From Streptomyces sp. NBC_01439 (GTDB taxonomy: Bacteria; Actinomycetota; Actinomycetes; Streptomycetales; Streptomycetaceae), in NCBI RefSeq assembly GCF_036227605.1, contig NZ_CP109487.1, positions 2,294,001-2,358,000 on the forward strand: a DNA stretch of 64,000 nucleotides, read 5' to 3'. A program made the position numbers and the translations under genes. Shown piece after piece: positions 23,047 through 44,712 of this stretch (position 1 is its first letter; each line of letters starts with the position of its first letter). The notes under the pieces are model-generated. The model was not told the origin of the DNA. It searched no databases and saw only the letters and a list, made by a program, of their open reading frames with translations.

Positions 23047-26000
23047 CTACTCCGTACTTTCGAACGGATAGACGAGACTCTGCGCACCCCGGATGCCGGA
23101 GACCAGTACGTTGCCGCTCAGTCGGTAGGGCAGGTGCTTCAGCGGCTCCAGGATGATCCGTACGGTGACCGGCGCCGTTCCCTCCTCCAGGCCGGAGACG
23201 ACAACGAGGAAGAAGTCGTCGCTCGCGACCGCCCGCCGGAACTCCGCGGGCGTGAGCTGGATCGTGTCCGGCTCGGCACCGCCGTACGTCTTGAGTTCGT
23301 AGAACCGGGCCAGCTCGTCCACCGCGTCCGCGCCCAGGCCGTGCTGGGCCCTCAGGTCACGCAGCTCGGTCTCGTCCAACGCCAGTGCCGAGCGCACGAG
23401 GTCCAGCGCCACTTTCTCCTGCTCCACGGTCGTGTAGGGACGCACAGAGGTGCGCTGCTGGGGGATGGCCGAGCCGGACCGGGGCTGCGACAAACCGGAC
23501 AGGCCCCTCCTCGGGGCGGTGCCGGTCGCGGGCCCGGCCCCGGATCGCGGTGGCGTGAGGGTCCCGCCGTCCACGGCGAGACGGAGGGTGCTGGGGTCGA
23601 CCAGCCGGCGGAACACGGCGGTGGGCTGCCCGGCCGGGACCGAGGGGAACCTGCCCGGCTCGATCACGGGCGGTACGGGTCGCCGGTCGTCGGTCGTCGG
23701 CGAGGCTCCCGCAGGCGGGCGCCTTCTGGTCGCGTTCGTCCGGCCGCGTCGGTCCACTTCGTCCTGCATCCCCCTGAGTCGACGGTCACGTTCGGCTGCG
23801 GCGGCTTCCCGATCACGGCGCACCCGGTCCTCCGCGAGGCTGAGGTCCACGGCGGTACGGCCCTGCTCCGCCCGGTCGTACGCGGCAGTCCAGGCGAGGG
23901 CCGCCTCCCGGCGGTGCCCCGGGAACCGGGCGGCGATCGAGGCACCGCCCGCGGAGGGCCTGTTGACCGCCGACGGTTCGCGGACGTGCAGGGTGCCGAA
24001 GGCCCAATCGACAGCGGCGTCGACCGCCACTTCGGCCGAGGTGCCGGGCAGCTCCACCCGGCAAATCAGGTCCGGTGTCACGCTCACCGTGAGTGCCGCG
24101 AGATCCTCCCAGGAACAGTCCAGGCTGCGGGCCACCGCAGGAGCGTTGCGCTGCAGGTCCTCGCGCAGATGGGTTACGGCCGCACGGACCAGTTCCGTCG
24201 CGTCCGGATCGTGCGACGCGGCGGTCGTGCCGTGCACGTCGAGTTGCTCCGCCCCGATCCACGTGAGGCGCAGGGCGCCCGCCAGCGGTTCGAACTGCTC
24301 CAGTTCCGCTCCCGGCCGCCACACTGCGTGCTCCCGGCCCAGCCCCTCGGCGACCATGGGATCCTCGACCGCGTACACCGGCCTCTTGCTCAACCAACCC
24401 TTGCTGGTGACCAGGGGCAACCCACCCAGCCGTCCTGCCGTCAGCTCCTCCGGCCGGACGGCGGCCGGGTCGCAGAGCATCTTCAGCGTCTCCAGGACGA
24501 CCGACTGGGTGGTTCCTTCCGGAACGTCCCGGCGCCCCCTCTTGTCCTGCTGCGCCATCTCCCTGATCACCTTCACCGCGTCGTCAACGGTCGGACGGCG
24601 CGCCCCGAGCCGCGTCCAGAACGCCTCGCCACCGGGGAACGTGGGAGCGAAAGCCCGAGCCGCCCCGAACAGCGGCTCACCGATCAGGCACTCGGCTGGG
24701 GGTCGCCAGCCGGAATTCGTGAGGACCAGCCCCTCGCCCGTCGTGAAAGCACGGAGTACCTCGTTGAACGGCATGTCGCCCGACACGCCAGAAGCCGCCC
24801 TTCCGGCGACGCGCTCGGCCAGCGCCTCGTAGACGATCAGTGCGGCCGGGGCGTTCGGGCCGGCCCCGTCCTTCTCCTCACGACGGAGCCGCCGCAGGCA
24901 CTCGACGAGGTCCCAGGTACGGGCGTCGCCGACCACCTCCAACGCCCGTAGCACCTCGGTACGGCGGCGCGCCTGGTCCTGGATCTCCGGGTGCAGGAAG
25001 TACGCGTCCCCGGCCCCGTAGACGGCCACGGTGCCCGTGGTGCGGGTACGGAGCCTGAACGGGCTGGAAGGGGTGCCGCTCCGATCGTCCAGCCATGCCA
25101 CATCGCGCAGCTGCCAGAGCCAGAAAGCGGCGGTTCGCCCTCGGTGCTGCCAGGAGTGGTAGTCGAAGGCCGCGCTGACCTCGGCACGTTCGGAGAAGCG
25201 GCTCCACGAGCGGCCGAGTACGTGGAGGAGCGCGGCCGCCCTGCGCCGGCGGCGGGCGGGATCGTCATCCTTTGCGATGTCGGTCGCGACGGAGTACAGG
25301 TCGGGGCAGTCGTAGTCGTCGAGGGTGTAGGTCGCGAGGAGGGCGTCCAGGGCTTTCGTGCGGGCCTCCGGCCCCGAGGCGAGACGTGCGGGCAATCCTC
25401 CGGGACCTCGTTCGAACCGCGCGCGCTGCCCACGATGGCTACGCGGCCGTGGGGCGGTCTCCGCGCCGAGCAACCGGAGGAACCTCAGCGCCCCGATGCT
25501 GCCGCCCTGCAGCACTTTGGCGTAACGGGGCTTCAGCCATACCGGCCCGGAAGCCGCGCGGGCCGCGAAGGCGAAGCTCTCGTCGCGCTCGGCACTGTCC
25601 AGCCCGGACGGGAGATAGGCCCGGGCGGGGGCGGTCTTGACGTCCTCCCGTTCCCCGTCGACCGTGTAGCGGTGGCCCTCCAGCCGTACGGCCAGGCCGA
25701 CCCCTCTGCCCCAGGGCTCGCGTCGCTTGTCCGGCACGTGTGCGAAGCCGTCCCGCAGCAGCATGAGTTGGCTGTCCGTCAGAGGCAGGCCGACAGTGCT
25801 GCCTCCTGCGGACCCGAAGTCCGCGATCCGCCGGATCACCGCCGCCGGATCATCGTCGCCGAGCAGCACGTCCTTCTCACCGAGCCATTCCCGCACAGCC
25901 CGCGCGTCGTCGGTGTCGGCCAGAAACGCCGGATGAATCTCACGGGCAAGCCCCAGTTCGACCGCGAGCCCGCGCGGGGCCGCGGAGAACATCACTGGGG

Positions 26001-27591
26001 CCGCGCCCCGCGGGCGGTACCGCGCGCCGGAGTTGTCCACGAGCCACTCGTGTGACAGCAGGCAGACGCTCCAGCCCGCTTCGATGACTCGCGCGGCCAG
26101 TTGCACCGTCACCTGCGGTGACCGCCTCTCGTCGCCCAAGAGGCCCCTCGCGTCATACACGTCGACTCGGGCCGGCGCGCTGGCCCCGTGGTTCTCCCAG
26201 TCCGACAGCACCTCCCGCCACCGGCCGTCCGGATCACGCATCGTCTGGGGCAGCGTGGACGGCACGTCGGCCAGGCGGGCGACCTCCTCCTCCGTCACGA
26301 CGCCCTCGAGTGCTTCGTCCTCCACGGCAAGGGAGTCGAGACGGAGCGGCCCCTTCCCCGGCACCTCCAGCAGCAGCTTCGCGGACACGAGCAGTCGGGC
26401 CTGGTCGAGCAGTCGGCGCTCCAATGCGGCGCCAGGGCCTTGGGCGTCACGGACGTCCCCGGGCAGCGGAACAGCGCCCCACGCATGGACTGGGTCCTGC
26501 CTGAACTGCCACAGAATGGCCGCCGTCCACAGATCGGCCACCAGCGGAACCAGCGCGGTGTTCCACGGGGTCTCGTCGAGCTTCTGCCGACTGGCGAGCG
26601 GGTCGAACTGGGCGCTCACCCAGAGGGCCGGCCCGATCTCCTCGACCGGCAGGCCGACATGGATCCGGCCGGGACCACCGTGTCCGAGCGACAGGGCGAC
26701 GGCGATCGTGGTGGTGGGTCCGGCGGCCTTGTGGGCCCTGGCGACTCCGGTCGGGCTCGGAACTGTGGTCCGGCACACCAGCCACCGGGGGCCGGCGTCG
26801 GCACGCGCGAGATGGGTCTCGACTTCGACCGGCCCACCGGCCTCGGTCTTGAATGCGGGTCCGGGCTCCCGGGTCAGGGCGAGCCGGCGTCGGACGTCGC
26901 CCCGAGCGTCGAGGTGCGTGACACCGGCCACCCGACCAAGGAACAGCAGCGCGCCGGCCGACCAGGAGTCGAGCCACTCGTCCACCGTCTCCGCGGCGAG
27001 GACGTCCTGCTCCAGAGGAATGCGGAGCACGGTCCAGGCTTCGTCGGCGAACCAGTCCGGCACGGCGAGCGGTTCGGCGACGGAAACGTACGGGTCCCCG
27101 ATGCGGACCCTGTAGTGGCCGTTGTGCACTTCCAAGTGGGGCGAGAGGGACTGTAGGGTCATCAGTCCGATTCCGAAACGCCCCGTCGACTCGGCTTGGT
27201 CGGCCTTGCTGGACAGCCACGGCAGAGCTAGGGCCACCACGTTGGGCAGCCGTACCGGGGCGCCGTTGTGGGCGACCAGTAGGTCCCGCTCCCTAGTGAG
27301 GACGCGTACGTCGGTGGCGCCGAGGTCCTCCGCGTTCTGGACGATCTCGGACAGGCCCTGCAGCCGGTCGCTCGACAGATTGCCCGCGTGGCCCCTGGTA
27401 CGGTCGAACGCATGGCGCACCAGCCCCGGCAGGGCCGCGAACAGCGCCCCCAGGTGCTCGACCGCCGCCTCGGTCGCTGCCCGCCCCTCCGGCTCCGGTA
27501 CGTCGTCCGCCTCCCTCATTCCCTCCTGGTCGAGGAGCCGTTCGGCAAACCGGCGGGCCCGTTCCACCGCCTCTGTGCTAGGCGTCGCCAT
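23047..27591 (-). CDS. Giant sacsin-type GHKL ATPase with DUF3883 (NO VEIN) C-terminus
   Basis: A 1514-residue protein, last gene of the leftward defence operon. The N terminus is an Hsp90/sacsin-like ATPase: LQGLSEIVQNAEDLGA (Glu82, Asn86; Mg/ATP N-box), VAHNG (106-110) and TGRFGIGLMTL (136-146; G2 box). About 1,200 residues without recognisable motifs follow. A basic linker leads to a C-terminal DUF3883-like domain with FYELKTYGG (Glu1432, Lys1434) and FFLVVVSGLEEG, a PD-(D/E)XK-related fold. Similar ATPase-DUF3883 proteins occur in phage-defence contexts. Its ATG overlaps the end of the PIWI gene by 14 bases, so the two are coupled. The earlier in-frame start inside the PIWI gene is less likely. 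Confidence 0.85.
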   Translation of the reverse strand: MATPSTEAVERARRFAERLLDQEGMREADDVPEPEGRAATEAAVEHLGALFAALPGLVRHAFDRTRGHAGNLSSDRLQGLSEIVQNAEDLGATDVRVLTRERDLLVAHNGAPVRLPNVVALALPWLSSKADQAESTGRFGIGLMTLQSLSPHLEVHNGHYRVRIGDPYVSVAEPLAVPDWFADEAWTVLRIPLEQDVLAAETVDEWLDSWSAGALLFLGRVAGVTHLDARGDVRRRLALTREPGPAFKTEAGGPVEVETHLARADAGPRWLVCRTTVPSPTGVARAHKAAGPTTTIAVALSLGHGGPGRIHVGLPVEEIGPALWVSAQFDPLASRQKLDETPWNTALVPLVADLWTAAILWQFRQDPVHAWGAVPLPGDVRDAQGPGAALERRLLDQARLLVSAKLLLEVPGKGPLRLDSLAVEDEALEGVVTEEEVARLADVPSTLPQTMRDPDGRWREVLSDWENHGASAPARVDVYDARGLLGDERRSPQVTVQLAARVIEAGWSVCLLSHEWLVDNSGARYRPRGAAPVMFSAAPRGLAVELGLAREIHPAFLADTDDARAVREWLGEKDVLLGDDDPAAVIRRIADFGSAGGSTVGLPLTDSQLMLLRDGFAHVPDKRREPWGRGVGLAVRLEGHRYTVDGEREDVKTAPARAYLPSGLDSAERDESFAFAARAASGPVWLKPRYAKVLQGGSIGALRFLRLLGAETAPRPRSHRGQRARFERGPGGLPARLASGPEARTKALDALLATYTLDDYDCPDLYSVATDIAKDDDPARRRRRAAALLHVLGRSWSRFSERAEVSAAFDYHSWQHRGRTAAFWLWQLRDVAWLDDRSGTPSSPFRLRTRTTGTVAVYGAGDAYFLHPEIQDQARRRTEVLRALEVVGDARTWDLVECLRRLRREEKDGAGPNAPAALIVYEALAERVAGRAASGVSGDMPFNEVLRAFTTGEGLVLTNSGWRPPAECLIGEPLFGAARAFAPTFPGGEAFWTRLGARRPTVDDAVKVIREMAQQDKRGRRDVPEGTTQSVVLETLKMLCDPAAVRPEELTAGRLGGLPLVTSKGWLSKRPVYAVEDPMVAEGLGREHAVWRPGAELEQFEPLAGALRLTWIGAEQLDVHGTTAASHDPDATELVRAAVTHLREDLQRNAPAVARSLDCSWEDLAALTVSVTPDLICRVELPGTSAEVAVDAAVDWAFGTLHVREPSAVNRPSAGGASIAARFPGHRREAALAWTAAYDRAEQGRTAVDLSLAEDRVRRDREAAAAERDRRLRGMQDEVDRRGRTNATRRRPPAGASPTTDDRRPVPPVIEPGRFPSVPAGQPTAVFRRLVDPSTLRLAVDGGTLTPPRSGAGPATGTAPRRGLSGLSQPRSGSAIPQQRTSVRPYTTVEQEKVALDLVRSALALDETELRDLRAQHGLGADAVDELARFYELKTYGGAEPDTIQLTPAEFRRAVASDDFFLVVVSGLEEGTAPVTVRIILEPLKHLPYRLSGNVLVSGIRGAQSLVYPFESTE

Positions 27592-30457
27592 GTACCTCGT
27601 CCTCGCTGTCCTCATCCGTGTCGAAGTCGAACGTGAGCTGGCCGGAGCCGTTGCGGACGACGGGCCCCGCGACCGGTCCCGCCGTCGGGTCCACCGTCTC
27701 CTCCTCGTCGTGCGGCAGCGCGTACTCGTCCGCGAGCCGCGCCAGGTGGAGGGCGAGCGGCAAGCCGAGCACGTCCCGGTAGTCGTCCTTGCAGATGCGC
27801 TGCTGGTGGACGAACGCGGCCCATGCCTCGGGGTCGTCGCCGGGCTGGAGGCAGGCCGGGGTGAGTTCCAGGAGTTCCGGGTTCCACGCGTTCGCCGTCG
27901 GCCGGTGGGCGCTCCGGCCGACGGGGTTGACGTGAGGGGTCAGCTTCGCGTCGTCGTTCGTCAGCTTCGTCTGCGTGCTCGCCTTGTCCGCAGTGCTGTA
28001 GAAGACACGGCCGGGAGCTCCGGGCTCGTGGGGCACCCACAGTCCCATGCCGAAGCCGCCCCGCTGTTGCCCGGCGAGATCGGCCTCGCGCTCCTCCCTC
28101 TCCGCCCACCACTGTGGCGTCTCATCACGGCCGCTGTCGGCGACCCTGACGACCCTGAGGTGCTTGCCGTAAAGACCGATCCGTTGCGCAGGACCGCCGT
28201 CTAGCCCGATCCGGTCGGCCTCCAGCCCGCCGTTGGTGAGCCACGACCAGCGCTTGCGCACGTCCTGTGCGTGGGCAAGGAGCAGGGTCGGCTTACCGCG
28301 CAGGCTCGCCAGGGTCCTCCTGATGAAGGCCGCGGTGACGGCCGACTGTTGTGCCGAGGTCCTCAGGTCGCTCCCGCGCACTCGTCCGGTCAGGGTCCGC
28401 AGCAGGTCCGGGTAGGGCATCCACTCCGATGCGTCCGCGGTGCGCCCCAGGACGCACGGTGCGTCCGGGCGGAGCAGCACCGCGATCGGTGTGAACTGTG
28501 CCTTGCCCGTGGGGCCGTCGACCCGGCGCTCCACCAGGTGGAAGGCGACCTGGTTCAGTCCGGGAGGAATGCGGTCGCCGAGCGTGTGCCGGGGCACGAG
28601 GCGCATCCCGGTCTGGCGGAGCCCGTCCGCCCAGGCCGCTTCGGCCCGCAGGACGGCGTCCTTCTCGGCGTCGGCCTTGTCCATGGTGGTGTCCAGGGGC
28701 CGGATGAACTGGGTGACCAGGCCGGCGTCCGCGCACCCGAGCCTGATCGCGTGCTTGGGGTCGGTGCGCCTCGCGGGGCCCTGGAACGCTTCGCTTCCTT
28801 CCAACTCGACGAGGGCGATCCGCGCCCCGGACACCCGCGCCCGGAGGCGGACCATCGTCTCGGCCACCCGTCCGCGCCGCTCGCGGATGGCTCGGTCGTG
28901 CTCCTGTCCCGCGCGCGGTGCCGGGCCCTCCGTACCGAGAGGGGATCCCAGCTCACCGAGCGGGTGGGCGTGGAGCCGTACGGTGAGGTCCCCGGCCTCC
29001 CACACCCATGTCTCCGGTCCCTGTTCACATCGGAATTCCTTGAGACCGAGTGCGCCCTCCGCGATTGCCGCGAGCCGGTCCCGCTGGTCATCGGTCTGGT
29101 GGAGCAGGAGGCCGACGAGGTCGTCACCGTCCAGCGTCGAGGCGAGTGCCGCGCGGCGCACCCGTGCGTTCTCCGCCGCCGTCCGTTCCGTCCGTTCCAG
29201 GACGGCGGCGAGCTCTTCGGCCGTGGCGTTCTTGGGCATGGCGGGCCGCTTCGTGAGCTGCCTGACGGGCGGGCGTCCGTACCGACTCCGCCGGAGCTTC
29301 GGGGCGGGGACGAAATCGGGGGCCAACGCCCGCTCTGCCCACTCGATGAGGCGGCGGCGTTCGCTGGGCATGAGCCCGGTTCCGATGGGGTGCCTGCCCA
29401 TGGCGGCCTGATGGCCAACCGCCAGTCCGATGCCGTCCCTTCCGTGTCCCGTCCAGTGGTCGGCCTCTTTCACCAGCCGATCGACCGAAGGGAGACCGTC
29501 GAGCGCTGCAACCGCCGCGAGCATGCCGCCGGGTCCGCCCTGCCGCCAGTCCGTGGTGCCGTTGCGCCACTGCAGCATGGCTACCGACAGCCGCTGGGAT
29601 ACCGGCCCGTCCGGCACGAGCGGGTTCTCCGGCAGCAAGTAGACCGAAACGCCCTTGCGGGCGGGCATCCAGACCTTTCCGGTGACGAACCGGCGGATCC
29701 CCGCGCTGAGATGGATCCGTGGCACCGGCGAGAAGGGAACGGTGCGTACGCCGACGCGGATGGTGGCCGCGTAGTAGGACGGCTTCTGCTCGCCGCCCCT
29801 GCCCGCGGGCCGGTACTCGATCGGCGGCCACGACATCAGTTCCGCGCTGCTGTTCCCTGCGTCGTAGCCGCCACTGGCGCCGGCGACCTGGTGGAACGTG
29901 AGCTGCTGGCCACCGTGCTCGTAGGCACCTTCACGGGCGATGCGTGCGGCCAGTTCGTCGGGGAGTAGCCGGTATGCCAAACGGGCGGGCACGGCGGTGC
30001 CGCCGGGAGACGGCTGCTGCTCGATCAAGTCGACGGTGTCTGCCCGCCAGGCCAGGGTTCCGGTGTCCAAGTCACGGAAGCACTCCATGAGCAGACGCCG
30101 TGCGGCCGGGTCTTCGGGATCGCGGATGAGGCTCCTGAGCCACGTGGCGGCGTAGAGGTTGGCCACCGCGGCGGGGAGCGGCTCGGCGCAGTAGAGCCAG
30201 GGGGTGTCCGCTCCGAAGGTGGCGTTGGAGGCGACGGTGACGACGTCCGGGGCGGTGGCACGGATCAGCTGGTTGATCTCCCAGGTGGGGATGCGACGCG
30301 GACCGGACCATCGGCCCTCCGGCCGGCCGTGGTCACGCAGTCGGCCGAGCGGCTCCTCCCAGTGGGCGGGCAGCGAGAGGGTATGCCGTAGGACGGTGAA
30401 CGGCCCCTGTGCCGGATCGGGCACATACGAGGCGGTCCGGACGTGCTGGTACGCCAT
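27578..30457 (-). CDS. Prokaryotic PIWI-RE protein (Argonaute-related)
   Basis: A 959-residue protein that matches the PIWI-RE family described by Burroughs, Iyer and Aravind: a long N-terminal region (DUF3962-like) followed by a MID-like part and an RNase H-fold PIWI domain with characteristic Arg and Glu residues. Visible landmarks are AWRADTVDLIEQ (about 150), RIALVELEGSEAF (about 566), HLRVVRVADSGRDETPQWWA (about 780), and the family-typical end DVLGLPLALHLARLADEYAL (about 905) before an acidic tail. Such proteins are thought to bind a guide-target duplex or R-loop and act with the helicase and nuclease encoded just upstream. GAGGAG precedes the ATG; 62 bases separate it from the helicase gene. 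Confidence 0.8.
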   Translation of the reverse strand: MAYQHVRTASYVPDPAQGPFTVLRHTLSLPAHWEEPLGRLRDHGRPEGRWSGPRRIPTWEINQLIRATAPDVVTVASNATFGADTPWLYCAEPLPAAVANLYAATWLRSLIRDPEDPAARRLLMECFRDLDTGTLAWRADTVDLIEQQPSPGGTAVPARLAYRLLPDELAARIAREGAYEHGGQQLTFHQVAGASGGYDAGNSSAELMSWPPIEYRPAGRGGEQKPSYYAATIRVGVRTVPFSPVPRIHLSAGIRRFVTGKVWMPARKGVSVYLLPENPLVPDGPVSQRLSVAMLQWRNGTTDWRQGGPGGMLAAVAALDGLPSVDRLVKEADHWTGHGRDGIGLAVGHQAAMGRHPIGTGLMPSERRRLIEWAERALAPDFVPAPKLRRSRYGRPPVRQLTKRPAMPKNATAEELAAVLERTERTAAENARVRRAALASTLDGDDLVGLLLHQTDDQRDRLAAIAEGALGLKEFRCEQGPETWVWEAGDLTVRLHAHPLGELGSPLGTEGPAPRAGQEHDRAIRERRGRVAETMVRLRARVSGARIALVELEGSEAFQGPARRTDPKHAIRLGCADAGLVTQFIRPLDTTMDKADAEKDAVLRAEAAWADGLRQTGMRLVPRHTLGDRIPPGLNQVAFHLVERRVDGPTGKAQFTPIAVLLRPDAPCVLGRTADASEWMPYPDLLRTLTGRVRGSDLRTSAQQSAVTAAFIRRTLASLRGKPTLLLAHAQDVRKRWSWLTNGGLEADRIGLDGGPAQRIGLYGKHLRVVRVADSGRDETPQWWAEREEREADLAGQQRGGFGMGLWVPHEPGAPGRVFYSTADKASTQTKLTNDDAKLTPHVNPVGRSAHRPTANAWNPELLELTPACLQPGDDPEAWAAFVHQQRICKDDYRDVLGLPLALHLARLADEYALPHDEEETVDPTAGPVAGPVVRNGSGQLTFDFDTDEDSEDEVHGDA

Positions 30458-30519
30458 GCTGTGGGTCTCCTCAGATCGGAGGGAGGTACGAGAGCGGGAA
30501 GGGGGCGGGCAGAGCGGCC

Positions 30520-33500: not shown

Positions 33501-33969
33501 CCGCCTCGGCGAGCGGGAGACGGCGGGTCGCGAACTCGGGCCCGGAGGTGAGCAGTTCCTCGAACACCTCGAAGCGGCGCGTCGCCCGGGCCGGTACGCG
33601 TCGGTGCGGCACCGCATCGACGCCCGCCAGGTCGTATCCGCGCAGCTGCTGCGGCACGCGCAGGTACGCCTCCAGCGCCTCTGCCCAGGCGTGTCCGCGT
33701 CTGAGGACCCACAGGTGGTGGCGTGCGCGCAGAATGCGCAGCCGCTGTTCGTCGGAGCGCACGTCCCCGAACGCCTCGCTGTAGGGGTATCCCCCGAGCA
33801 GTGGCCACACGTCGATCGCGGCGCGCGTGGGCGCCACGCTCTGCAGCAGGTACAGACCCAGCTCAACGTCGAGGAGATCGGCGGCCCGGAACGAACCGAG
33901 ACCGTCCGGCCATACGTCGGTGAGTTGGCGGGGCGAGCAACGACGGTGCCAGCCGCTGCGATCACGCAT
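30520..33969 (-). CDS. DinG/XPD-like superfamily 2 helicase of the pPIWI-RE island
   Basis: An 1149-residue helicase. After ~250 residues of a specific N-terminal domain come Walker A GMVGAGKSTL (264-269), four Cys (353, 374, 411, 417) placed between motifs I and II as in the Fe-S cluster of XPD/DinG, LIIVDEADRV (DEAD 469-472), and motif VI MWQVIGRLVRGG near residue 1075. It would unwind DNA or remove strands for the PIWI-RE protein. The start at 33969 is chosen because it overlaps the endonuclease stop by 8 bases and homology begins there; a longer frame runs into the previous gene. Confidence 0.85.
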   Translation of the reverse strand: MRDRSGWHRRCSPRQLTDVWPDGLGSFRAADLLDVELGLYLLQSVAPTRAAIDVWPLLGGYPYSEAFGDVRSDEQRLRILRARHHLWVLRRGHAWAEALEAYLRVPQQLRGYDLAGVDAVPHRRVPARATRRFEVFEELLTSGPEFATRRLPLAEAGEHTFRAQDRIHSVQITDDLLPGALPRSHALDALPAGLGEPIDVTWRELETAAEAMDGAEEAADGSRNGWCDRLSRVRLLVRDEALGRFARGERLRIDQLLHMVGMVGAGKSTLRDILTFHLVTHTSRRVTLVVGDVAEALAVVELFNRLGVPAAPVLGHSTRERNIGRLHRRAAVAGADTMLGHDHSGFAYLSSACPVDVLRGMEARRPLGIREAPCLGLYPAVDQEETPDDPLLEAESPAVRRPRTNPQRRLCPLWNRCPRHRGARDLVDARVWVATPAGLVHSAVPQHQHDEQIRYLELACRLSDLIIVDEADRVQMQLDTVFAPASTLVGTYPNSWFDEVAVHKFQQMARDGRLQLSERDVDDWTNAVNTVSAATDRLYSLLVKDGELRQWISVDYFSAFTLHNLLIDSWFPGRNAGDQPPPAARLLDEALLRFRDDPLHEHEITGDDDQVTPLVNTFVHLTLELLHAPQGARTRERLRSALTSVVGHDSGVLDRIDVQARRFEFTLLLAALHSRLDFMTILWPRVEAALHLENASNVLSRRPPKDYEAVIPESPMGNVLGFQFRLTDPERDGDRSGELRFFHCNGVGRELLMRMGDLCRVDGRPAPHVLLMSATSWAGTSSRYHLHAEVGAVLRPRDEEVEAVLGTEFRKEFLHWPGSEGPRPLRLSGCRPQERPQALVEMLRQLAVPDRSLPGASSMLDTELDEIPDQDRRRILLLVGSYDEARRAAEYLNGVPEWNGRVVQLVSDDADVDTAWARLPEDPAVRTLTRGDVRSFAKVGGELLVAPLLAVERGHNIVLSTGKAAIGSVYFLARPHPRPDDIALAIQSINDWAVRQLRDTGRVFTQATLAAATPHQAAIGFRSRARRQWNRYLTRRLAWSSLRDEEKVAFTWDQLVVMWQVIGRLVRGGVPARVAFVDAAFSPREAGFEAVDTPDTSLLASMRAVLAPYFDESDVVVHGAEAPPEPTPIDKSLVRELYEPLYRALVGMG

Positions 33970-35170
33970 GGCGGTCTCCTTCGGAGCGGGGGAACGCGAT
34001 TTCCGTCCGGCCGGCGACCCGCCCGGTGATCTGCTCGGCCACGAGACGCAGGAAGGTCCGGTCGTCGAGCAGGGTGATGCACCCCATGAGCCCCTCCGGG
34101 AGGTTCCGGCGGAACTGTCGTCCGTACGCCTCGTTCTCGCGGAACCGATAGCGGGGCACGACCACGAAGGCACGGTCGAAGGGCGGTTCGGTCCGGAACG
34201 GGGTGAGCGTGCGAGCGAGCAGGACGGGGTTGACCCGGTCCTTGACGTCCACGGCCCAGTACCGGCCACCGGGCAACGGGACGCGCAGGTCGTACGCGTC
34301 GAACTGGGGCCACATCTCGGAGTCGATTCCGAAGCGTCTTTTGAGGGCCACCCCGATGTCGTTCTCGGCCAGGCCCGGGCTGGTGACGAACATCCGCAGC
34401 GGGCGACTGAGCTGGTACAGCCCGCTGCGGTCGGAGCGTACGGGGACCGCGGTGGCGGCCGTGGCGTCACGGCGGCAGCGGTCCAGCTCACAGCGGTGAC
34501 CGCCACCGGGCAGCGGCACCATCAGGCAGCGGCAGCGGCCGCACTGCCGGTAGCCGCCGCCGTCGCTCCGATACGTGACGGGAACGGGTTCGTAGCACTG
34601 CCTGATGACGTGGTGGAGCAGAAGTCCGCACTCCGGGTCCCCACCGAGCAGCGCGAGCTCCGCTCCGGTGAGCACGGGCCGAGAGATCAGCAGGGACCGG
34701 AAGGCGGTATATGCCTCAGGCGCGCCTGCGGCCCGGCACACGGTGAGGGCCTCCAGCATGCGCTGGTTCTCGAAGATCTCGGCGGCGGGGTCCGCCGCGT
34801 CGACCTGCCATTCGAGGCAGAGTTGGTGCGGCAGCCTCGTCTGGGGATCCACGAGCGTACCGGCAGCCCCACGCGCTTCGGGAGGCAGCTTCAGCGGCCA
34901 TTGCCTCAACGGTCGTTCGCACGCCCAGCGCACCATCCCGGGGACGCTGCCGGGCGGTTCGACTTCGCTCCGCAGGCAGTGCAGGACCAGACGGTTGTAC
35001 GCGTTCTGAACCTTGGCCGGATAGACGGGGTGGGACACGCCGCGCTGCCGGGAGAGACGGACCAAGGCACTGGCGACCTCCCGGAGCAGGGATTCGTCCG
35101 ATCCCACGACGGGTCGGGGCGATGGGGCGGATCGGATGACCTCGGCACTCCGTGTGGTCTGTGTGCTCAT
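33962..35170 (-). CDS. pPIWI-RE-associated restriction endonuclease
   Basis: A 402-residue nuclease, the third member of the known pPIWI-RE three-gene island. The C-terminal PD-(D/E)XK domain has FDAYDLRVPL (Asp291/Asp294) and WAVDVKD (Asp308, Lys310). In the middle is a zinc-ribbon-like segment CGRCRCLMVPLPGGGHRCEL followed by another Cys. The N-terminal ~200 residues are helical and specific. It would cut DNA brought by the helicase and the PIWI-RE protein. Its ATG overlaps the stop of the RecB-like gene (ATGA) and its stop overlaps the helicase start, so the three are tightly coupled. Confidence 0.8.
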   Translation of the reverse strand: MSTQTTRSAEVIRSAPSPRPVVGSDESLLREVASALVRLSRQRGVSHPVYPAKVQNAYNRLVLHCLRSEVEPPGSVPGMVRWACERPLRQWPLKLPPEARGAAGTLVDPQTRLPHQLCLEWQVDAADPAAEIFENQRMLEALTVCRAAGAPEAYTAFRSLLISRPVLTGAELALLGGDPECGLLLHHVIRQCYEPVPVTYRSDGGGYRQCGRCRCLMVPLPGGGHRCELDRCRRDATAATAVPVRSDRSGLYQLSRPLRMFVTSPGLAENDIGVALKRRFGIDSEMWPQFDAYDLRVPLPGGRYWAVDVKDRVNPVLLARTLTPFRTEPPFDRAFVVVPRYRFRENEAYGRQFRRNLPEGLMGCITLLDDRTFLRLVAEQITGRVAGRTEIAFPRSEGDRHA

Positions 35171-36792
35171 GCCGCTTCCGCCGTGTCGGCCGGGGTCTGA
35201 GCGCTCGGGCACCATCGCGATACCGGACATTGGCGACAGTGCCCGCCGGGCTTCGCCTCCCACGCGCGGTCCGAGCGCCAGGGGCCGGCGTACCGACGGA
35301 GGACGGCTTCCGCCTTGGCCAGGCGCTCCGCGTCCATCAGGTCGATCACGTGGGGATCGGATCCGTCGGGACGCAGGACTTCCAACTCCACCCTCGATCC
35401 GGAGGGGTCGCCGCCCAGTTCCGCCCGGGCGAGCAGGACAACGGCGAGAGCGAGCTGCGGATACACGTCAAGGAGGTCCTTGCCGATGCGGTGCGGGGTG
35501 CGGGTCGTCTTCAGTTCGCGCCAGATCCAGGAACCGTCCTCCTGGTAGAGCAGGTCGGGCTTGACCACTACCAGGGCCTGGGCCGCCGTGTCGTGGAACA
35601 CCCGGGTCGGTTCGCACTCGACCCGCTCGATGGCCTCCGGAACCTGGAAGGGGCACGAGTCCACGTGCTGCAGGAGCATGCCGCGCCCCGTCTCCGCCTC
35701 CTCGTCCGGCACCCTCCACCGGCCGGTGGTCCAGTTCTCCCCGTACGGGGGCATGTCGTCGCGCGTACAGGGGACCGGGCCCGTGCGGCGGTGCAGCGCC
35801 TCGATCCAGCCGTGCACGGCCTGACCGAGCTTGGCCGCGTCACCGTACTCGTCGGCCTTCGGCAGGTGCAGGGAGCGCAGCAGTGATTGCGCCGGGCACG
35901 CGGCGTGGTACCTGAGGTCGCTGATGGACACCTTGCGAAGCGGCAACCTACTTGAGGGCAGGGCCAATACCCCCGGGGAGCGGGGCACGGCGCCGCACCC
36001 GGTGAACTGCTTGCAATCGAAGCAGGCGGACCCGGGGCGCTCTGGGCCGCCCCTGACCACGCTCCTCACGTGGGCGTCACCGTGGGCCTCGTAGTACGCC
36101 CTGGCCTCCTTCGCCGTTCCGTCGAACTGAACGGTCCGTGATCCGTCACCCAGGCCGACCTCAATGATCCTGATTCTCGCGACGCGCCCTGGAGGTCCCT
36201 GAATCGCGAACTCCTCGTTCCAGCGACGCGGCCACGCCGCATCGGCCCCGAACGCCGCGGTGTACGCGGCGACCGCGATCTCGCCCCGGCTCGACGTGCG
36301 TGCGTCCCCGTGTCTGAGCCTCCGGTACTCGCGCACGGTGCCGTCGGCCGACTGGTAACGGCGCCACCATGCGTAGAGCTCCCAGCGCCGACCGTTGTCC
36401 TTGTGCACCGCCCAGTACGGCCGGACGGGCACGAAGGGGTCCGGACCCCGGCTCGTGTACTGCCGCACCGCGTGCTCCACGTAGATCCGGTGCCCCTCGT
36501 GCAGGGCGGGCTGGTGGCCGCACAGCGCGTCGAGCGCCTCCTCCACCGTGGAGCCGCTGAACTCGATCCGGTCCAGCACCGCACACACAGGACCCAGCGT
36601 GAAGGTCTCGTGCTCCTCCCGCGGAAGCTGCGACGGCACCCTTGCCCGAAGGCCCGGCCGGGCCTTCGCCGCGTCGCGGGACGGGCAGCCGTGCGCCTCG
36701 TCCGTTCCCCCTCCGGTGCCCGGCCCGATCCTGACCGGCCCCTCGTTCCCCGTCATCCATTGCGGCGCACGCCACGGCGCGTCGTCGGTCAC
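35167..36792 (-). CDS. RecB/Cas4-like Fe-S nuclease with novel N-terminal domain
   Basis: A 541-residue protein, first gene of the leftward defence operon. Residues 285-541 form a PD-(D/E)XK nuclease: SISDLRYHAACPAQSLL (Cys299), LGQAVHGWI (His327), VVKPDLLY (Asp413), WRELKTT (Glu426, Lys428), YPQLALAV (Gln446), and CRQCPVSRWC (Cys519, 522, 528). Cys299 plus these three make the usual 4Fe-4S clamp. Residues 1-280 are not recognised and contain a separate CFDCKQFTGC cluster (257-266). The GTG at 36792 is chosen because GGGAGGGG lies 6 bases upstream. This gene is not part of the canonical three-gene pPIWI-RE set. Confidence 0.82.
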   Translation of the reverse strand: MTDDAPWRAPQWMTGNEGPVRIGPGTGGGTDEAHGCPSRDAAKARPGLRARVPSQLPREEHETFTLGPVCAVLDRIEFSGSTVEEALDALCGHQPALHEGHRIYVEHAVRQYTSRGPDPFVPVRPYWAVHKDNGRRWELYAWWRRYQSADGTVREYRRLRHGDARTSSRGEIAVAAYTAAFGADAAWPRRWNEEFAIQGPPGRVARIRIIEVGLGDGSRTVQFDGTAKEARAYYEAHGDAHVRSVVRGGPERPGSACFDCKQFTGCGAVPRSPGVLALPSSRLPLRKVSISDLRYHAACPAQSLLRSLHLPKADEYGDAAKLGQAVHGWIEALHRRTGPVPCTRDDMPPYGENWTTGRWRVPDEEAETGRGMLLQHVDSCPFQVPEAIERVECEPTRVFHDTAAQALVVVKPDLLYQEDGSWIWRELKTTRTPHRIGKDLLDVYPQLALAVVLLARAELGGDPSGSRVELEVLRPDGSDPHVIDLMDAERLAKAEAVLRRYAGPWRSDRAWEAKPGGHCRQCPVSRWCPSAQTPADTAEAA

Positions 36793-36879
36793 GGCTTTCC
36801 CCTCCCGGTCGAAGCACGGAGATCCACCGGCCGTCGCTAACCCCGAGGCCGTGTCGCCGAGCGTAGCGCACAACTTTGG

Positions 36880-36896
36880 AACTCCTTGGAGGAGTT
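36880..36896. promoter_or_regulatory. Palindromic operator between the two divergent defence operons
   Basis: AACTCC-TTGGA-GGAGTT is a perfect 6-bp inverted repeat with a 5-base centre. It sits inside a direct repeat of TTTGGAA (36876-36882 and 36896-36902, approximately) and touches the -35 of the rightward promoter. It lies 88 bases before the leftward GTG start, so one regulator bound here could control both operons. Confidence 0.6.
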
Positions 36897-36924
36897 TGGA
36901 AATGAAAGGAATCGGCGGTAGAGT
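36896..36924 (+). promoter_or_regulatory. Leaderless promoter of the rightward defence operon
   Basis: TTGGAA (36896-36901), exactly 17 bases, then TAGAGT (36919-36924). The first ATG is at 36931, 7 bases after the -10, so the mRNA should begin at or next to the start codon. No ribosome-binding site fits before this ATG. Leaderless mRNAs are common in Streptomyces. Confidence 0.65.
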
Positions 36925-36930
36925 GCGCCC

Positions 36931-37833
36931 ATGACGGCATCGCTGGAGGATCTCGAGGAACGCCTGTCGCGCCTTCGCGCCCTCCTGCGAGAGGCCAGAC
37001 GGGCCCGCGACAACGTGGCCACCGCCCGCATCCGCACCGAGCTCCGCGAGGCGGAAGTCGCGTGGGAGCAGGCCTTGGACGCCGAGGAGGGGGAGGTGGC
37101 AGCTCCACCTGTCTCTTCACCCTCGCCACCACTCAGTGGAACCCCGGCACCCACCCCCACCGCTGGGACCGCATCCCGGTTCCGGCCCCAGACCCACGGA
37201 AGGCAGCCCACCCACGGCGCCGTCCCGGTCCGCGAGCAGGTACACCAAGCGCTCACCCTGCTCGGTGCTCCCGCGCCGCCGAAGCTGATCTCGTCCGTGT
37301 ACGAGGCGTTCTTCACCGAACCGCTGATCGCGACGAAACTCGCTTCGCTCCGCCGCGACGAGGAGAGGTCCTTCAGCGCACAGGGCTACGCGCGCCCCTA
37401 CTACATCTGCGCCGCCCTCGCCCACGACCGGCTCACCCCCGCCCGCGGTCTCCTCGCCGTGTCCGTCTGGCCCCTGGAACGGCGCATAGTCGGTCCGCTG
37501 AGTCCGCGCACCGACTTCCTGGTCCACGCCATCGGCACTGCCGAGCAGGTCCTGCGACTCGACGCCGCCGGCTATCCCGCCTCCGATGCTGCCCGCCAAC
37601 TGCTGCGCCGTTTCGCGCTCAACATCCCCGGCGCGTACGACGACGAAGAGATCGACCCCGAGCGCGTGATCTCCGCGGCGCACACGGAGGCCTCGGTTCA
37701 CCAGGAGGCGGACGATTCACTGCGCCGCGCGGCCGCCGACCGCGCGCGTGGCCAACTCGGCGACCTGCAGCAGCTCTTCGGGGCCCCGCCCATGCACGAT
37801 GCCCTGCGCGGCTCGGCCGGCTTCACCACCTGA
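36931..37833 (+). CDS. Coiled-coil protein of the rightward defence operon
   Basis: A 300-residue protein, first gene of the four-gene divergent operon. Residues 4-52 form a charged coiled coil (LEDLEERLSRLRALLREARR). A Pro/Ser-rich linker (about 55-95) follows. Then comes a helical domain (VREQVHQALTLLGAPAPPKL, followed by ISSVYEAFFTEPLIATKLAS) that looks like a winged-helix or helical DNA-binding unit, and a C-terminal part with PRTDFLVHAIGTAEQVL. No catalytic motif is visible. It could be the regulator that binds 36880-36896 or a structural part of the system. I do not recognise the family. Translation is probably leaderless. Confidence 0.75.
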   Translation: MTASLEDLEERLSRLRALLREARRARDNVATARIRTELREAEVAWEQALDAEEGEVAAPPVSSPSPPLSGTPAPTPTAGTASRFRPQTHGRQPTHGAVPVREQVHQALTLLGAPAPPKLISSVYEAFFTEPLIATKLASLRRDEERSFSAQGYARPYYICAALAHDRLTPARGLLAVSVWPLERRIVGPLSPRTDFLVHAIGTAEQVLRLDAAGYPASDAARQLLRRFALNIPGAYDDEEIDPERVISAAHTEASVHQEADDSLRRAAADRARGQLGDLQQLFGAPPMHDALRGSAGFTT

Positions 37834-37886
37834 CCGACTGCCGGATTCCTCCGGTACCGCCACAGAATTCCGCGTAAGAAGAGAAG

Positions 37887-39011
37887 ATGCCTCCGCAGCA
37901 CCCCTCTGCCCCCTCCCCGGGAAGGCTCGCCGTCCTCCGTGGACCGCGTCCCCCACAGGAGTACACGGCACGCAAGATCACTGCCCTCACGGCCAACCCG
38001 GCGTGCGCCCGCCGCGCCGTACTCGACGCAGCGGGCGTGGACAAGGCCCTTCTTGCCCAACGCCTGGGTCATGAGCCGCGTTTCGGCCGGTCCCCCTTCG
38101 CGATTCGGCGCGAGCAGAGCTTTGAGGCCCTGGTGAAGTGGGGCGGATATGCAGAGCTCATCCGTCTGCTCCGGGAGCAGCTCGACGCCCCCGTCGAGGA
38201 AGCCGCGGTGGCGGACCTGTCCGAGGTGGGCGGCCAGACTTCGCTCGCCGTGCGAGCGGGCGAGACCCGGCGGTTCCTGACCCGACTGGCCTCCGGAGTC
38301 GACGAGCGGCTGATCCTGGACCGACCCGTGCTGACCTTGGAAGTCGCCGGCCAGACCGCCCACGTCATACCGCAGGCCCTAAGCCACCGTACGGGCGGAC
38401 AGTTCTACGTAGTGGAGATCCGCTCCTTCGCTGCCATCGACGGCCAGGCGAACCCGTCGGCGGTCGCCCAGACCACGAAACAGGCCGCGGTTTCCGTGCT
38501 CGCCCTGCGGCAGACCTTGACCGAACTCGGCCTCGATCCCTCGGTCATCGCCCACGAGTTCCTTCTCATCTGCCCGAAGGACTTCTCCAACCGTCCCTAC
38601 GGAAAGCTGATCGACCTCCGCCAGGAACTCGATGCCCTACGGTTCCAGCTGTCCCGTCTGCGCAGGGCCGACGATCTGGCGCACACCCTCTCGCTTTCCG
38701 CGACCCTCGACACCGAACGGCCGGAGGCCGAGATCGACGCCACGCTGCGCGAGTTGGAGGCCAGTTTCACCCCCGACTGCCTCTCGTTCTGCGAGATGTC
38801 CCGGTACTGCCGGGACGAGGCCACGGTCTGCGCCTCCCCCGCGCGGCTTGGCACAATGGTGCGCAGCAGCCTGCCCGGCATCGACTCCACCCGGACCGCC
38901 CTCCGCTGCCTCGACGGCACCAGCGCCCCCGGACCCGCCGAGGAAGCGGTCATCAACAGGCTGCGGGCCGCCGAACAGCTCCGCCGGCTGCGCGGGGGTG
39001 CGACCGCATGA
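37887..39011 (+). CDS. Cas4-like Fe-S nuclease homologue
   Basis: A 374-residue protein with a Cas4/AddB-type Cys pattern: Cys40 in LTANPACARRAVLD and CLSFCEMSRYCRDEATVC (Cys298, 302, 308, 315), suited to a 4Fe-4S cluster that joins the two ends of the domain. Between them FYVVEIRSF (Glu177, Arg179) sits where PD-(D/E)XK nucleases have Glu-x-Lys, and AQTTKQAAV supplies the Gln of the following helix. The Lys-to-Arg change and the lack of a clear upstream Asp mean it might bind DNA without cutting. AAGAGAAG precedes the ATG. Its stop overlaps the next start (ATGA). Confidence 0.7.
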   Translation: MPPQHPSAPSPGRLAVLRGPRPPQEYTARKITALTANPACARRAVLDAAGVDKALLAQRLGHEPRFGRSPFAIRREQSFEALVKWGGYAELIRLLREQLDAPVEEAAVADLSEVGGQTSLAVRAGETRRFLTRLASGVDERLILDRPVLTLEVAGQTAHVIPQALSHRTGGQFYVVEIRSFAAIDGQANPSAVAQTTKQAAVSVLALRQTLTELGLDPSVIAHEFLLICPKDFSNRPYGKLIDLRQELDALRFQLSRLRRADDLAHTLSLSATLDTERPEAEIDATLRELEASFTPDCLSFCEMSRYCRDEATVCASPARLGTMVRSSLPGIDSTRTALRCLDGTSAPGPAEEAVINRLRAAEQLRRLRGGATA

Positions 39012-40519
39012 ACGCCATCGCCACGGTGGCTGCCCTCCGGGCCTCCGAGTCCGGAGACGCCGAGCGGCTGACGACCGTGCGACACGTCCACCTGGACGAC
39101 GTCCCCTTCGTTCTCGTCCCGCTCACCCTCGCTGGCGAGGCCTGCGCCCCGCTGGCCGCACTCGCCGGCACGGATCCCGAACACCCGGCGCTCCTGACGG
39201 TCCGCCACCCCCATGACCAAACTGACCGATTCGACTTCGTCGAGAGCCTCGGGGACCTCCTCCTGCCCTACATAGAGGAGTGCCGCGCGGCGCCGAAGGA
39301 GCCGTACACGGTCGGGCGCGGCAAGGACAAGGAGGAGCGGGAGCGGCCCTTGCGCGCACCCCAGTTACTCGTCCCGAACGCCGGGGGGATCTCGTACATC
39401 CGACTGCTCGGCCGCCTGACCCGACTGCGCGCGACGGACGGTCCACATGCGGTCTCCCCGTCCGTACCCCTGCTCGGCAAGTGGCTGACCTGGTTCGCCG
39501 ACCGGGCCGAGTTCCCGGACTCAGGCCTGCTCCAGGCCATGACACGGTCGCTCTCCGCCCACTGGGCCACCGGGCAGAGCCCCGCTCAGGACGCGCACCT
39601 GGCTTCCCTGCTCGGCTGGATCGATCCGCCCGTCGGACGCACCGGCGCCGAGACCGCCCGGGAGCGCGAGGATCCCGCGACGTGGCCGCCCGCGGGCCCG
39701 GCAACCGACCCGGTCTTCGATCGCACGCTCGACGAGCTGATCGCGAAGTACGACAGCGCGTCAGGGCAGCGGGGGCAGGACGCCGCCGCCCGCACCATCG
39801 ACCGTGAACTCCGGGCCCAGATGCTGCCGACGTGGCAGCTGATGTGGCAGGGAATCAGTCGGCTGAGAGAGCTCCCGGCGGGGGAGCACGTCGCCCGCCG
39901 ACGGGCGTTCGACCGACAACTGTTCGGTGAGTACGCCGCCTATTTGGACGACGACGGCCGACCCCAGGCCCGCCGCGACCACGCGGTGGGAGCGGCCCGT
40001 CGCCTCGCCCGTATGGAGGAGGCCCAGGCACGGTACGACGCCGAGCGCGCGTACGACGATCCGTTGGTGATGGCGGAGTACGAGCTGACGGGAGATGCGT
40101 TCACGGGCCTCGTCACCGCTCGGGACGAGGGGCGCACCGTCCCGGGGAAGCGGCCCGGATCTCCGCTGTGGCGCCCGACCGTCACCGTGCACTGTGAGCT
40201 CCCGGTGTCCATGGCGGCCGGAACCTCGGTCAAGTGCCCGGCCAGGCCCGGACAGAAGGCCGAGATCCTTGAGGTGATGACCCACGGAGCCGGAGCCACT
40301 GTCCTGATCCAGTTGAACGGCGGCTTCGACAACAAGCGCAAGCCCCCAGCGCCTGAAGGGACCTTGGCCGACCTGGGAGAGACGGTCACTTTCACCTCTA
40401 TCGACCCGAGGACCATGCCGTCTTCGCTCCCGGCCGAAGAGGACACTCCCTGGACCCACGGCGGCCCACCGCAGCCGTACGAACCCACCGACGAGGACGC
40501 GGAAGAGGTTTGGGAATGA
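39008..40519 (+). CDS. Orphan protein of the rightward defence operon
   Basis: A 503-residue protein that I do not recognise. It starts with MNAIATVAALRASESGDAER, has GGISYIRLLGRLTRLRATDG in the first third, a helical middle (MLPTWQLMWQGISRLRELPA) and a C-terminal part (VTVHCELPVSMAAGTSVKCP, then VLIQLNGGF) that looks like a beta-barrel or nucleic-acid-binding domain. The tail is acidic. It overlaps both neighbours by ATGA, so it is likely to be made in a fixed ratio with the Cas4-like protein and the helicase and may bridge them. A longer upstream frame is a shadow of the nuclease gene. Confidence 0.72.
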   Translation: MNAIATVAALRASESGDAERLTTVRHVHLDDVPFVLVPLTLAGEACAPLAALAGTDPEHPALLTVRHPHDQTDRFDFVESLGDLLLPYIEECRAAPKEPYTVGRGKDKEERERPLRAPQLLVPNAGGISYIRLLGRLTRLRATDGPHAVSPSVPLLGKWLTWFADRAEFPDSGLLQAMTRSLSAHWATGQSPAQDAHLASLLGWIDPPVGRTGAETAREREDPATWPPAGPATDPVFDRTLDELIAKYDSASGQRGQDAAARTIDRELRAQMLPTWQLMWQGISRLRELPAGEHVARRRAFDRQLFGEYAAYLDDDGRPQARRDHAVGAARRLARMEEAQARYDAERAYDDPLVMAEYELTGDAFTGLVTARDEGRTVPGKRPGSPLWRPTVTVHCELPVSMAAGTSVKCPARPGQKAEILEVMTHGAGATVLIQLNGGFDNKRKPPAPEGTLADLGETVTFTSIDPRTMPSSLPAEEDTPWTHGGPPQPYEPTDEDAEEVWE

Positions 40520-41865
40520 CTGCCACACCGGAGGACGGCCACGACGTGTCGCCCGCCGCGCTCGCCGACCGTGCGGTCGCCGAAGTGCTGTCCGGCCTTG
40601 ATTCCGGCGCCGGGCGGGGGATCGTGGTGGACTCCCCGCCCGGCGCCGGAAAGTCCACGCTGGTGAAGCGGGCCACTGGCCACCTGACATCGGCCGGCCA
40701 TCAGGTCATGATCGTCGCGCAGACCAACGAGCAAGTTGACGACCTGGTCGACAACATCGCCCGGGAGCATCCCGATCTCCCCATCGGTCGCCTGCACGCG
40801 AGCGGGTTCGCCCTGCCCGAACGCGTGCGCCGGCACGGCAGCGTGCGCGGCAGCAACGATGCAGGCGACCTGCGCGACCTACCGGTCGTGGTCTCGACCG
40901 CCAAGAAGTGGTCGTACGTGACCCCGGAGAAGTGTCCTCCGTGGCGCTGGGCCATCGTCGACGAGGCGTACCAAATGCGATCGGACGCACTGCTCGCGAC
41001 GGCGCCCTTGTTCAGCGGCGAAGGATCGCGCGCCCTGTTCGTCGGCGACCCCGGCCAGCTGGACCCCTTCGCCACCGTCGACACCGACCGCTGGCACGGC
41101 CTGACCTGGGACCCGCTCCGCAACGCCGTCGACGTCACCCTGGCACACAACCCAGACCTGTTGCGGCTCAAACTCCCCGTCTCCTGGCGGCTGCCGGAAA
41201 TGGCGGCTCCCCTGGTGGAGAAGGCGTTCTACCCGTTCTACCCGTTCGTCTCCGGGAGTCGGGCAGGAGACCGCGTGCTCACCTACAGCACCGCTCCTCA
41301 CGGGGTGACTCCACCAGATGCTGTACTGGCACGTGCGGCCGAGTCCGGATGGGGCCTGCTGGAACTCCCCGCCCAGCACACCCTCGATGACGACCCAGAG
41401 GTCGCCGACGCCCTCGCGGACACAGCGGCCCGACTGCTGGCACGCGGGGCTCTCGTGAACGGCGAAACGCTCACTGAGTCTCGCATCGCCATCGGTGCGG
41501 CCCGCACCGTCCAGGCTGACTCGGTTCGCACGCGGCTGCACGCGCGGGGCCTTACGGGCATCACGGTGGACACCGCCAACCGCCTCCAGGGGCGCGAGTT
41601 CGACGTCACCTTGGTCTGGCATCCGCTCTCCGGCCGCCAGGACGCCTCCGCCTTCCACCTCGAGACCGGCCGCCTATGCGTCCTCCTCTCCCGCCACCGC
41701 TTCGCCTGCATCGTGGTGGCGCGGGCCGGCATCACGGATCTCCTGGACCGTCATCCCCGCAGCAGCCCCGTCTACCTCGACGTTCCGCCGAAGTTCCCGG
41801 ACGGCTGGCGGGCACACCAGGTGGTCATGGAGTACTTGGAGAGCGAAGCCCTGCCACGCCCGTGA
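40516..41865 (+). CDS. Superfamily 1 DNA/RNA helicase
   Basis: A 449-residue helicase-like ATPase with Walker A VVDSPPGAGKSTLVKRA (residues 37-53), motif Ia MIVAQTNEQVDDLV, motif II WAIVDEAYQM, motif III FVGDPGQLDPF, motif IV around PVSWRLPEM, motif V TANRLQGREFDVTLVW and motif VI VLLSRHRFACIVV. This is closest to the Dna2/Upf1-like branch of SF1. Such helicases commonly pair with Cas4-like nucleases; here the two are two genes apart in one operon. The ATG overlaps the previous stop. It is the last gene of the rightward unit. Confidence 0.88.
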   Translation: MTATPEDGHDVSPAALADRAVAEVLSGLDSGAGRGIVVDSPPGAGKSTLVKRATGHLTSAGHQVMIVAQTNEQVDDLVDNIAREHPDLPIGRLHASGFALPERVRRHGSVRGSNDAGDLRDLPVVVSTAKKWSYVTPEKCPPWRWAIVDEAYQMRSDALLATAPLFSGEGSRALFVGDPGQLDPFATVDTDRWHGLTWDPLRNAVDVTLAHNPDLLRLKLPVSWRLPEMAAPLVEKAFYPFYPFVSGSRAGDRVLTYSTAPHGVTPPDAVLARAAESGWGLLELPAQHTLDDDPEVADALADTAARLLARGALVNGETLTESRIAIGAARTVQADSVRTRLHARGLTGITVDTANRLQGREFDVTLVWHPLSGRQDASAFHLETGRLCVLLSRHRFACIVVARAGITDLLDRHPRSSPVYLDVPPKFPDGWRAHQVVMEYLESEALPRP

Positions 41866-44630: not shown

Positions 44631-44712
44631 GCTGGATCCTTCCCCGAAGGTGCAGGGGAAGGTTAGCCAGCGGAATCAATCGTTCCTACAACGATGGCTC
44701 GTCTTCGGCCCT

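Follow-up and report, generated by a model that had tools for sequence, protein, structure and literature searches.

What does a PIWI-RE operon in Streptomyces do together with the genes that face it, and which of those genes belong to it? To our knowledge, the role of PIWI-RE proteins is not settled, and no means is known by which they spare their host. The locus that raises the question lies in Streptomyces sp. NBC_01439, whose genome is a single contig of 9.58 Mb (NZ_CP109487.1); the window analysed here is its stretch of 64,000 nucleotides from position 2,294,001 to 2,358,000. The original prediction had been a nine-gene divergent island acting as one machine, perhaps in immunity through recognition of R-loops, and this has been confirmed in part: our own codon-usage gene caller, run over the whole window, places nine genes in two divergent groups at 23047-41865, and the two operons are conserved together within one clade, but the conserved unit consists of eight genes, the PIWI-RE operon and the facing quartet O6-O9, and not of nine. 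That the PIWI-RE system here is a lineage-specific eight-gene form is a reading placed a little short of even. The features are as follows.

23047-27591, minus strand: TmtA-family sacsin-type ATPase, judged an add-on (PDLC03968 TmtA, 1680 bits over 12-1521; NF047352)
27578-30457, minus strand: pPIWI-RE protein with X, MID and RNase H-like domains (PF13111, PF18157, PF13032; PprPIWI, 530.7 bits)
30520-33969, minus strand: PprDinG, Z domain and DinG-type helicase (PF18155; PprDinG, 785 bits)
33962-35170, minus strand: PprRE, Y domain and restriction endonuclease, REase (PF18156, PF18154, PprRE)
35167-36792, minus strand: PprPDDEXK, iron-sulphur (Fe-S) RecB/AddB-like PD-(D/E)XK nuclease, heading the PIWI-RE operon (PF12705, 72.7 bits; PprPDDEXK, 325.8 bits)
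36793-36930, no strand: divergent control region, with a TTGG array of 10-bp period at 36876-36899, beside O6
36931-37833, plus strand: O6, fold unassigned, heading the quartet (open reading frame; 352 relatives in genome_contigs)
37887-39011, plus strand: O7, Cas4/Exo5/Dna2-type nuclease fold with the active site lost and four cysteines kept (predicted structure, Foldseek, VIA, residues)
39008-40519, plus strand: O8, N-terminal part resembling the exonuclease-type domain of B-family polymerases, C-terminal beta-barrel resembling domain 1B of UPF1-type helicases (tentative)
40516-41865, plus strand: O9, superfamily 1 (SF1) helicase core of UPF1/Dna2 type (PF13086, PF13087; motifs intact)

A conserved unit of eight genes

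The two operons are held together across a lineage of Streptomyces. When relatives of O6 were sought in genome_contigs and the best 80 of 352 kept, a PIWI-RE operon divergent to O6 was found in 16 loci, all titled Streptomyces; with the window and L033 these make 18 distinct loci in which O6-O9 and the Ppr operon occur together (22 PIWI-linked rows, of which L034-L037 repeat loci already among the 18). The PprPDDEXK gene is present in all 18 by tblastn, even where the gene caller had missed it. A joined O8 and O9 tree (94 rows, some loci appearing twice) groups all PIWI-linked copies in a single clade, which also holds L162 (at a contig edge), L169 and L038/L163, where no PIWI operon is seen in the fetched stretch; the genome of L038/L163 has a PIWI-RE operon of the kinase type at a distance of about 24 kb. 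Since one quartet clade holds all PIWI-linked copies, the linkage most likely arose once and was then kept, with one or two losses. Pairwise distances among O6-O9 also follow those of PIWI, DinG and RE (r 0.90-0.98 over 153 pairs from the 18 loci, host kinship being ignored).

Outside this clade the two operons are found apart, as had been considered from the start: the PIWI-RE operon was not seen in 64 of the best 80 quartet loci, contig ends cutting some of these short, and the quartet is missing from 22 intact four-gene PIWI-RE operons. The latter come from a survey of PF18154, which matched at 74 places in 63 of 249 Streptomycetaceae genomes, 66 of the 74 places being examined, the window among them. 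Within the one clade, however, the pair is kept. Among the matches listed for the same 249 genomes, an O8 relative occurs in 243, and the PIWI-linked quartet is an extra, diverged copy in six; the closest other quartets are PIWI-linked in five of five cases. Five core copies examined from Streptomycetaceae (L048-L052) form an O7-O8-O9 trio with no O6 match, and many other actinobacteria have the plain O6-O7-O8-O9 arrangement. An empty insertion site was sought with each of the two flanks in 61 genomes, and no relative with left and right flank side by side was found among the matches listed.

The four-gene PIWI-RE core (PprPDDEXK, PprRE, PprDinG and PprPIWI) is already known, as all four genes are matched by existing PADLOC models. 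The six remaining genes had been placed outside the known PIWI-RE set, which was wrong for the Fe-S nuclease, already PprPDDEXK in PADLOC. In the parts of Burroughs et al. (2013; PMC3702460) available to us, the REase-DinG-PIWI triad is described as a three-gene island, with no methylase gene associated with the REase gene. The published order is found here (an 8-base overlap, then a 62-base gap), and PprRE is not the first gene of the operon, being preceded with a 4-base overlap by the PprPDDEXK gene. In that nuclease, D413, E426 and K428 as well as C299, C519, C522 and C528 are kept in every one of 34 aligned rows. An alignment of 51 proteins has columns of conserved R and of conserved E, candidates for the published R and E of the pPIWI-RE module, and the PF13032 match of the window protein reaches 237.7 bits. 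A second PIWI-RE operon, apparently of the three-gene type, lies elsewhere in the same genome (L142, about 1457267-1465000).

The gene order is PDDEXK, RE, DinG, PIWI-RE and sacsin-type leftward from 36792, and O6, O7, O8 and O9 rightward from 36931. By our own gene starts, five of the seven within-operon junctions overlap and three of the seven are of the 4-base ATGA type, so that the tight ATGA overlaps held to run through both operons are real at those three, but not between DinG and PIWI, with the 62 bases noted above, or between O6 and O7, which are 53 bases apart. The families proposed for the leftward genes have been borne out by the matches listed above, with a sacsin-type P-loop and TmtA for the last of them; DUF3883, which had also been proposed for the sacsin protein, found no match there in the Pfam search.

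That fifth leftward gene is judged to lie outside the conserved unit. The protein matches the TmtA profile over its full length, and TmtA, of the Tiamat system, matches at 1,300 bits or more in nine of the 249 Streptomycetaceae genomes, the window's included, with a two-piece form in two more. Compared with the places of the REase gene, TmtA lies away from PIWI-RE in 10 of these 11 genomes, the window being the sole one in which it stands beside PIWI-RE. It also occurs in the island's nearest named relative, Streptomyces sp. rh34 (L171), at the end of the fetched stretch. The machine of nine genes was accordingly dropped, TmtA adjoining PIWI only in the window and L171. Beyond PIWI, the six survey loci have TmtA or other genes, and L150 and L152 share at least four genes there.

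The boundary on the other side is set by what follows O9. In the same direction as O9 there is a type III-like set (ResIII helicase, methyltransferase and UvrD-PDDEXK) in L145 and L146, an Hma set in L147, and Snf2 with a methyltransferase in L144; a PD-Lambda-1 gene follows in the other direction in L143, and a kinase in the window. Across the 18 loci, a methyltransferase set follows O9 in 11, being type III-like in L156, L157, L164, L165 and L174, of Snf2 type in L155, L167 and L168, and of Hma type in L159, L160 and, weakly, L166. No such set was found in that position in L161, in L170 or in the five loci of the window's subclade (window, L171, L153, L158 and L033), so that in the other subclade 11 of 13 loci have such a set next door. 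At least three unrelated sets thus use the site after O9 while the eight genes stay, and this sets a boundary of the unit at that end. In the window's own genome, PF01555, PF02384 and PF00145 have matches elsewhere and none inside the window. The kinase that follows O9 here belongs to a pair at 42439-45603 (minus strand), made up of genes for a Ser/Thr kinase and for an M23 peptidase; both have an Inhibitor_I36 domain and are convergent to O9, and the pair is judged unrelated to the island.

The quartet and its control region

The last three genes of the quartet resemble a Dna2 protein split over separate genes, tentatively so as regards O8. O7 (predicted local distance difference test score, pLDDT, 81.5) has a RecB-type PD-(D/E)XK fold in its predicted structure, of the Cas4/Exo5/Dna2 type according to Foldseek and VIA. 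Its earlier description as Cas4-like therefore holds by fold, but not by family, the window copy having no Pfam or NCBIfam match; the O7 relative in L051 has a sub-threshold match to PDDEXK_1. In the window Q-E-R replaces the catalytic D-E-K, and the D-ExK site is lost in all 18 distinct PIWI-linked copies, by a change of K to R together with loss of D or E. D-E-K is kept in 62 of 76 other rows, including the nearest outgroups without PIWI (L039, L040/L173 and L041), and the four cysteines are kept in all 22 PIWI-linked rows. Of the up to three or four nuclease-like parts once counted in the island, O7 lacks its active site in every PIWI-linked copy.

O9 matches AAA_11 and AAA_12 (PF13086, PF13087), as expected of the SF1 helicase that had been proposed for the last rightward gene, and its GAGKST and VDEAYQ motifs are present in all 22 PIWI-linked rows. 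O8, whose window copy shares 96% identity with a protein of Streptomyces virginiae, gave no significant match by Foldseek alone; its weak structural likeness to the 1B beta-barrel of the UPF1 type is tentative. No helpful relative of O7, O6 or O9 came up when their sequences were compared with solved structures.

The 138 bp between the two divergent starts agree with the shared control region that had been proposed. Upstream of O6, TTGG recurs at an exact 10-bp period, in three or four copies, in 21 of the 22 PIWI-linked rows, the window having three copies; L165 is the sole exception, and its start is apparently miscalled. None of 4,400 single-base shuffles had three or more TTGG at this period, and six of the 71 other rows have three or four (L038, L163, L043, L154, L162 and L169). 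The array belongs to the quartet lineage. Most of the other subclade has TTGGCA, 17 bases and TAAGCT just before the O6 start, which may be read as the promoter of a leaderless transcript; the window differs.

Away from PIWI-RE, 12 of the best 80 loci have SbcD-SbcC beside the quartet, in two arrangements: divergent in five (L185, L186, L189, L193 and L202), and downstream in the same direction in seven (L183, L184, L188, L192, L200, L203 and L229). This pairing fits DNA-end processing by the quartet. Quartets paired with SbcD-SbcC are likewise seen in L044-L047, the Pfam and NCBIfam names of the pair having been obtained at L044; in all these loci the six genes may form a set for end processing or defence.

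The methyltransferase and kinase of related operons

The quartet occupies a slot that other genes fill in related operons. There are 22 intact PDDEXK-type operons beyond the six eight-gene loci, L123, where the nuclease gene of the PIWI-RE locus is interrupted, being left out. Within the 20 kb fetched, the adjoining one or two genes include a Ser/Thr kinase in 21 of the 22, and an N6 adenine methyltransferase of one family in 19 (profile matches in 18, a tblastn match in L103); some of these methyltransferases and kinases have been given Pfam names, the others being assigned by similarity. Both occur in L083-L094, L096, L098-L100, L103, L105 and L108, and only the kinase in L095 and L122. L097 has a full type I restriction-modification (R-M) set instead, and its methyltransferase, being part of that set, was not counted with the 19. 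Over 18 loci that have both, distances of the methyltransferase (r 0.95) and kinase (r 0.91) follow those of PIWI, with none of 2,000 permutations as high, host kinship being ignored.

No member of this methyltransferase family was found in the stretches examined of the six eight-gene loci, and no kinase of that family save a weak match in the window, to an envelope-type kinase. Whether that gene (42439-43980) takes the place of the PIWI-RE kinase was weighed, and the idea was dropped, the match being weak (85 bits) and the protein bearing an Inhibitor_I36 domain. Other methyltransferases follow O9 in four of the six. On the midpoint-rooted DinG tree, the eight-gene clade (support 0.953) is sister to L097 (1.0) and lies among lineages with methyltransferase and kinase, and because it is nested there, the simpler reading is that the quartet replaced the methyltransferase/kinase pair in this slot. 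Most four-gene PIWI-RE operons examined in Streptomycetaceae are thus accompanied by a methyltransferase and a kinase, which differs from what the available parts of the 2013 description give; in one lineage that slot is taken by a helicase quartet, in which a Cas4-type nuclease is kept but its active site lost.

Several further loci may be recorded beside these. PIWI-RE operons without PDDEXK have a type I-like adenine methyltransferase in the fetched stretch in L113, L114, L118, L124, L127, L130, L140 and L141, and a weak SbcC/SbcD-like pair lies near one such operon in L112. A conserved gene of 459-481 aa stands directly after PIWI in L103, L105 and L108; the one in L105 matches nothing in Pfam or PADLOC.

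Possible function and relation to known systems

The reading that we favour, though at somewhat less than an even chance, is DNA restriction by an eight-gene form of PIWI-RE, in which the helicase quartet feeds the PIWI-RE nuclease complex. O7-O8-O9, with O6, would act as a Dna2-like DNA translocase without cutting of its own; it would unwind incoming or replicating foreign DNA and hand it to the PIWI-RE/DinG/REase complex, and the operon's own Fe-S nuclease would take over the cutting. As to the sparing of self, the DNA structure entered (ends, forks or R-loops) may decide in the window's subclade, and in the other subclade the methyltransferase set next door may mark self in the 11 loci, out of 13, that have one. 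A broader version, considered rather unlikely, is that PIWI-RE effectors work with exchangeable cassettes for self and non-self, mostly an adenine methyltransferase and a kinase, and here a Dna2-like helicase with a dead nuclease, the operon's Fe-S nuclease doing the cutting; the window's subclade would then be a composite machine that enters at ends, independently of methylation. That 11 of the 18 loci have a methyltransferase set behind O9 weighs against a methylase-free form: it has lowered our confidence in both versions, and it weakens the case for a fully methylase-free system.

The same sets, being R-M-like, are what one would expect if the locus were an array of neighbouring defence modules, the quartet standing alone and divergent to PIWI-RE, with selection keeping the island and not a joint machine. 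This main rival is doubtful, though less so than the cassette version. It draws on the many quartets without PIWI, on two clade members without an adjacent PIWI, and on quartets that stand beside SbcD-SbcC, trypsin-TPR or SMC-like genes; moreover, close relatives share flanks, so that the conservation may partly be recent descent. However, the sets after O9 vary and the eight genes stay together, loss of the O7 site coincides with the PIWI-linked clade, its nearest outgroups keeping the site, and the family methyltransferase/kinase pair is missing in that clade. A regulatory or guard role, in which the quartet holds the nuclease operon back or licenses it, a task that may fall to the methyltransferase/kinase pair in related loci, and the dead O7 serves as a decoy or an inhibitory subunit, would account for the shared slot and for an O7 that lost catalysis and kept its four cysteines, which suggests binding; yet no methyltransferase or protein-kinase family matched O6-O9, and O9 keeps the tested helicase motifs, so that this role appears improbable. 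Least likely of these is that PIWI-RE and the quartet serve DNA repair or replication, at replication termini or broken ends, and not defence. The near-universal O8 relative and the SbcD-SbcC pairing would suit it, as would the cell-division effect of a PsPIWI-RE mutant in the available parts of PMC10991935, but the PIWI-linked copy is extra and patchy, and lies next to other defence-type genes.

Of all this, the split-Dna2 likeness of O7-O8-O9, the lost O7 site, and the kinase and methyltransferase in the slot of related operons are new here. The titles, abstract starts and passages covered on PIWI-RE and related terms, subscription papers and preprints excluded, held nothing on the O6-O9 quartet; PMC7641849 was rejected as a PIWI-RE source, its available text being on 'Piwi-related' and irrelevant.

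Among known systems, the island shares with Tiamat the full-length TmtA match of its sacsin protein, TmtA being found elsewhere than at PIWI-RE in nearly all genomes that bear it. All four models of the PADLOC Ppr set match the window operon, but none of the models in that collection matches O6, O7 or the O8 frame, and those to O9 are weak partial matches. Mre11-Rad50 (SbcD-SbcC) is a partner of the same quartet in other loci, but has no counterpart in the window's unit. With the Cas4/Exo5/Dna2 nucleases, including the Argonaute-associated Cas4 ACE1 (PDB 9iac), O7 shares the fold and four conserved cysteines; it differs from them in that the catalytic residues are lost in PIWI-linked copies, and helicase and nuclease are on separate genes. 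The island is also like the pPIWI-RE three-gene island (PMC3702460), with the same succession of REase, DinG and pPIWI-RE and the same X, MID, RNase H, Y and Z domains. Here, in contrast, an Fe-S nuclease gene precedes the REase gene and a divergent quartet faces the operon, no such quartet being described in the available parts of that paper; and whereas the island given there has no associated methylase, a methyltransferase of one shared family accompanies 19 of the 22 related four-gene operons of this study.

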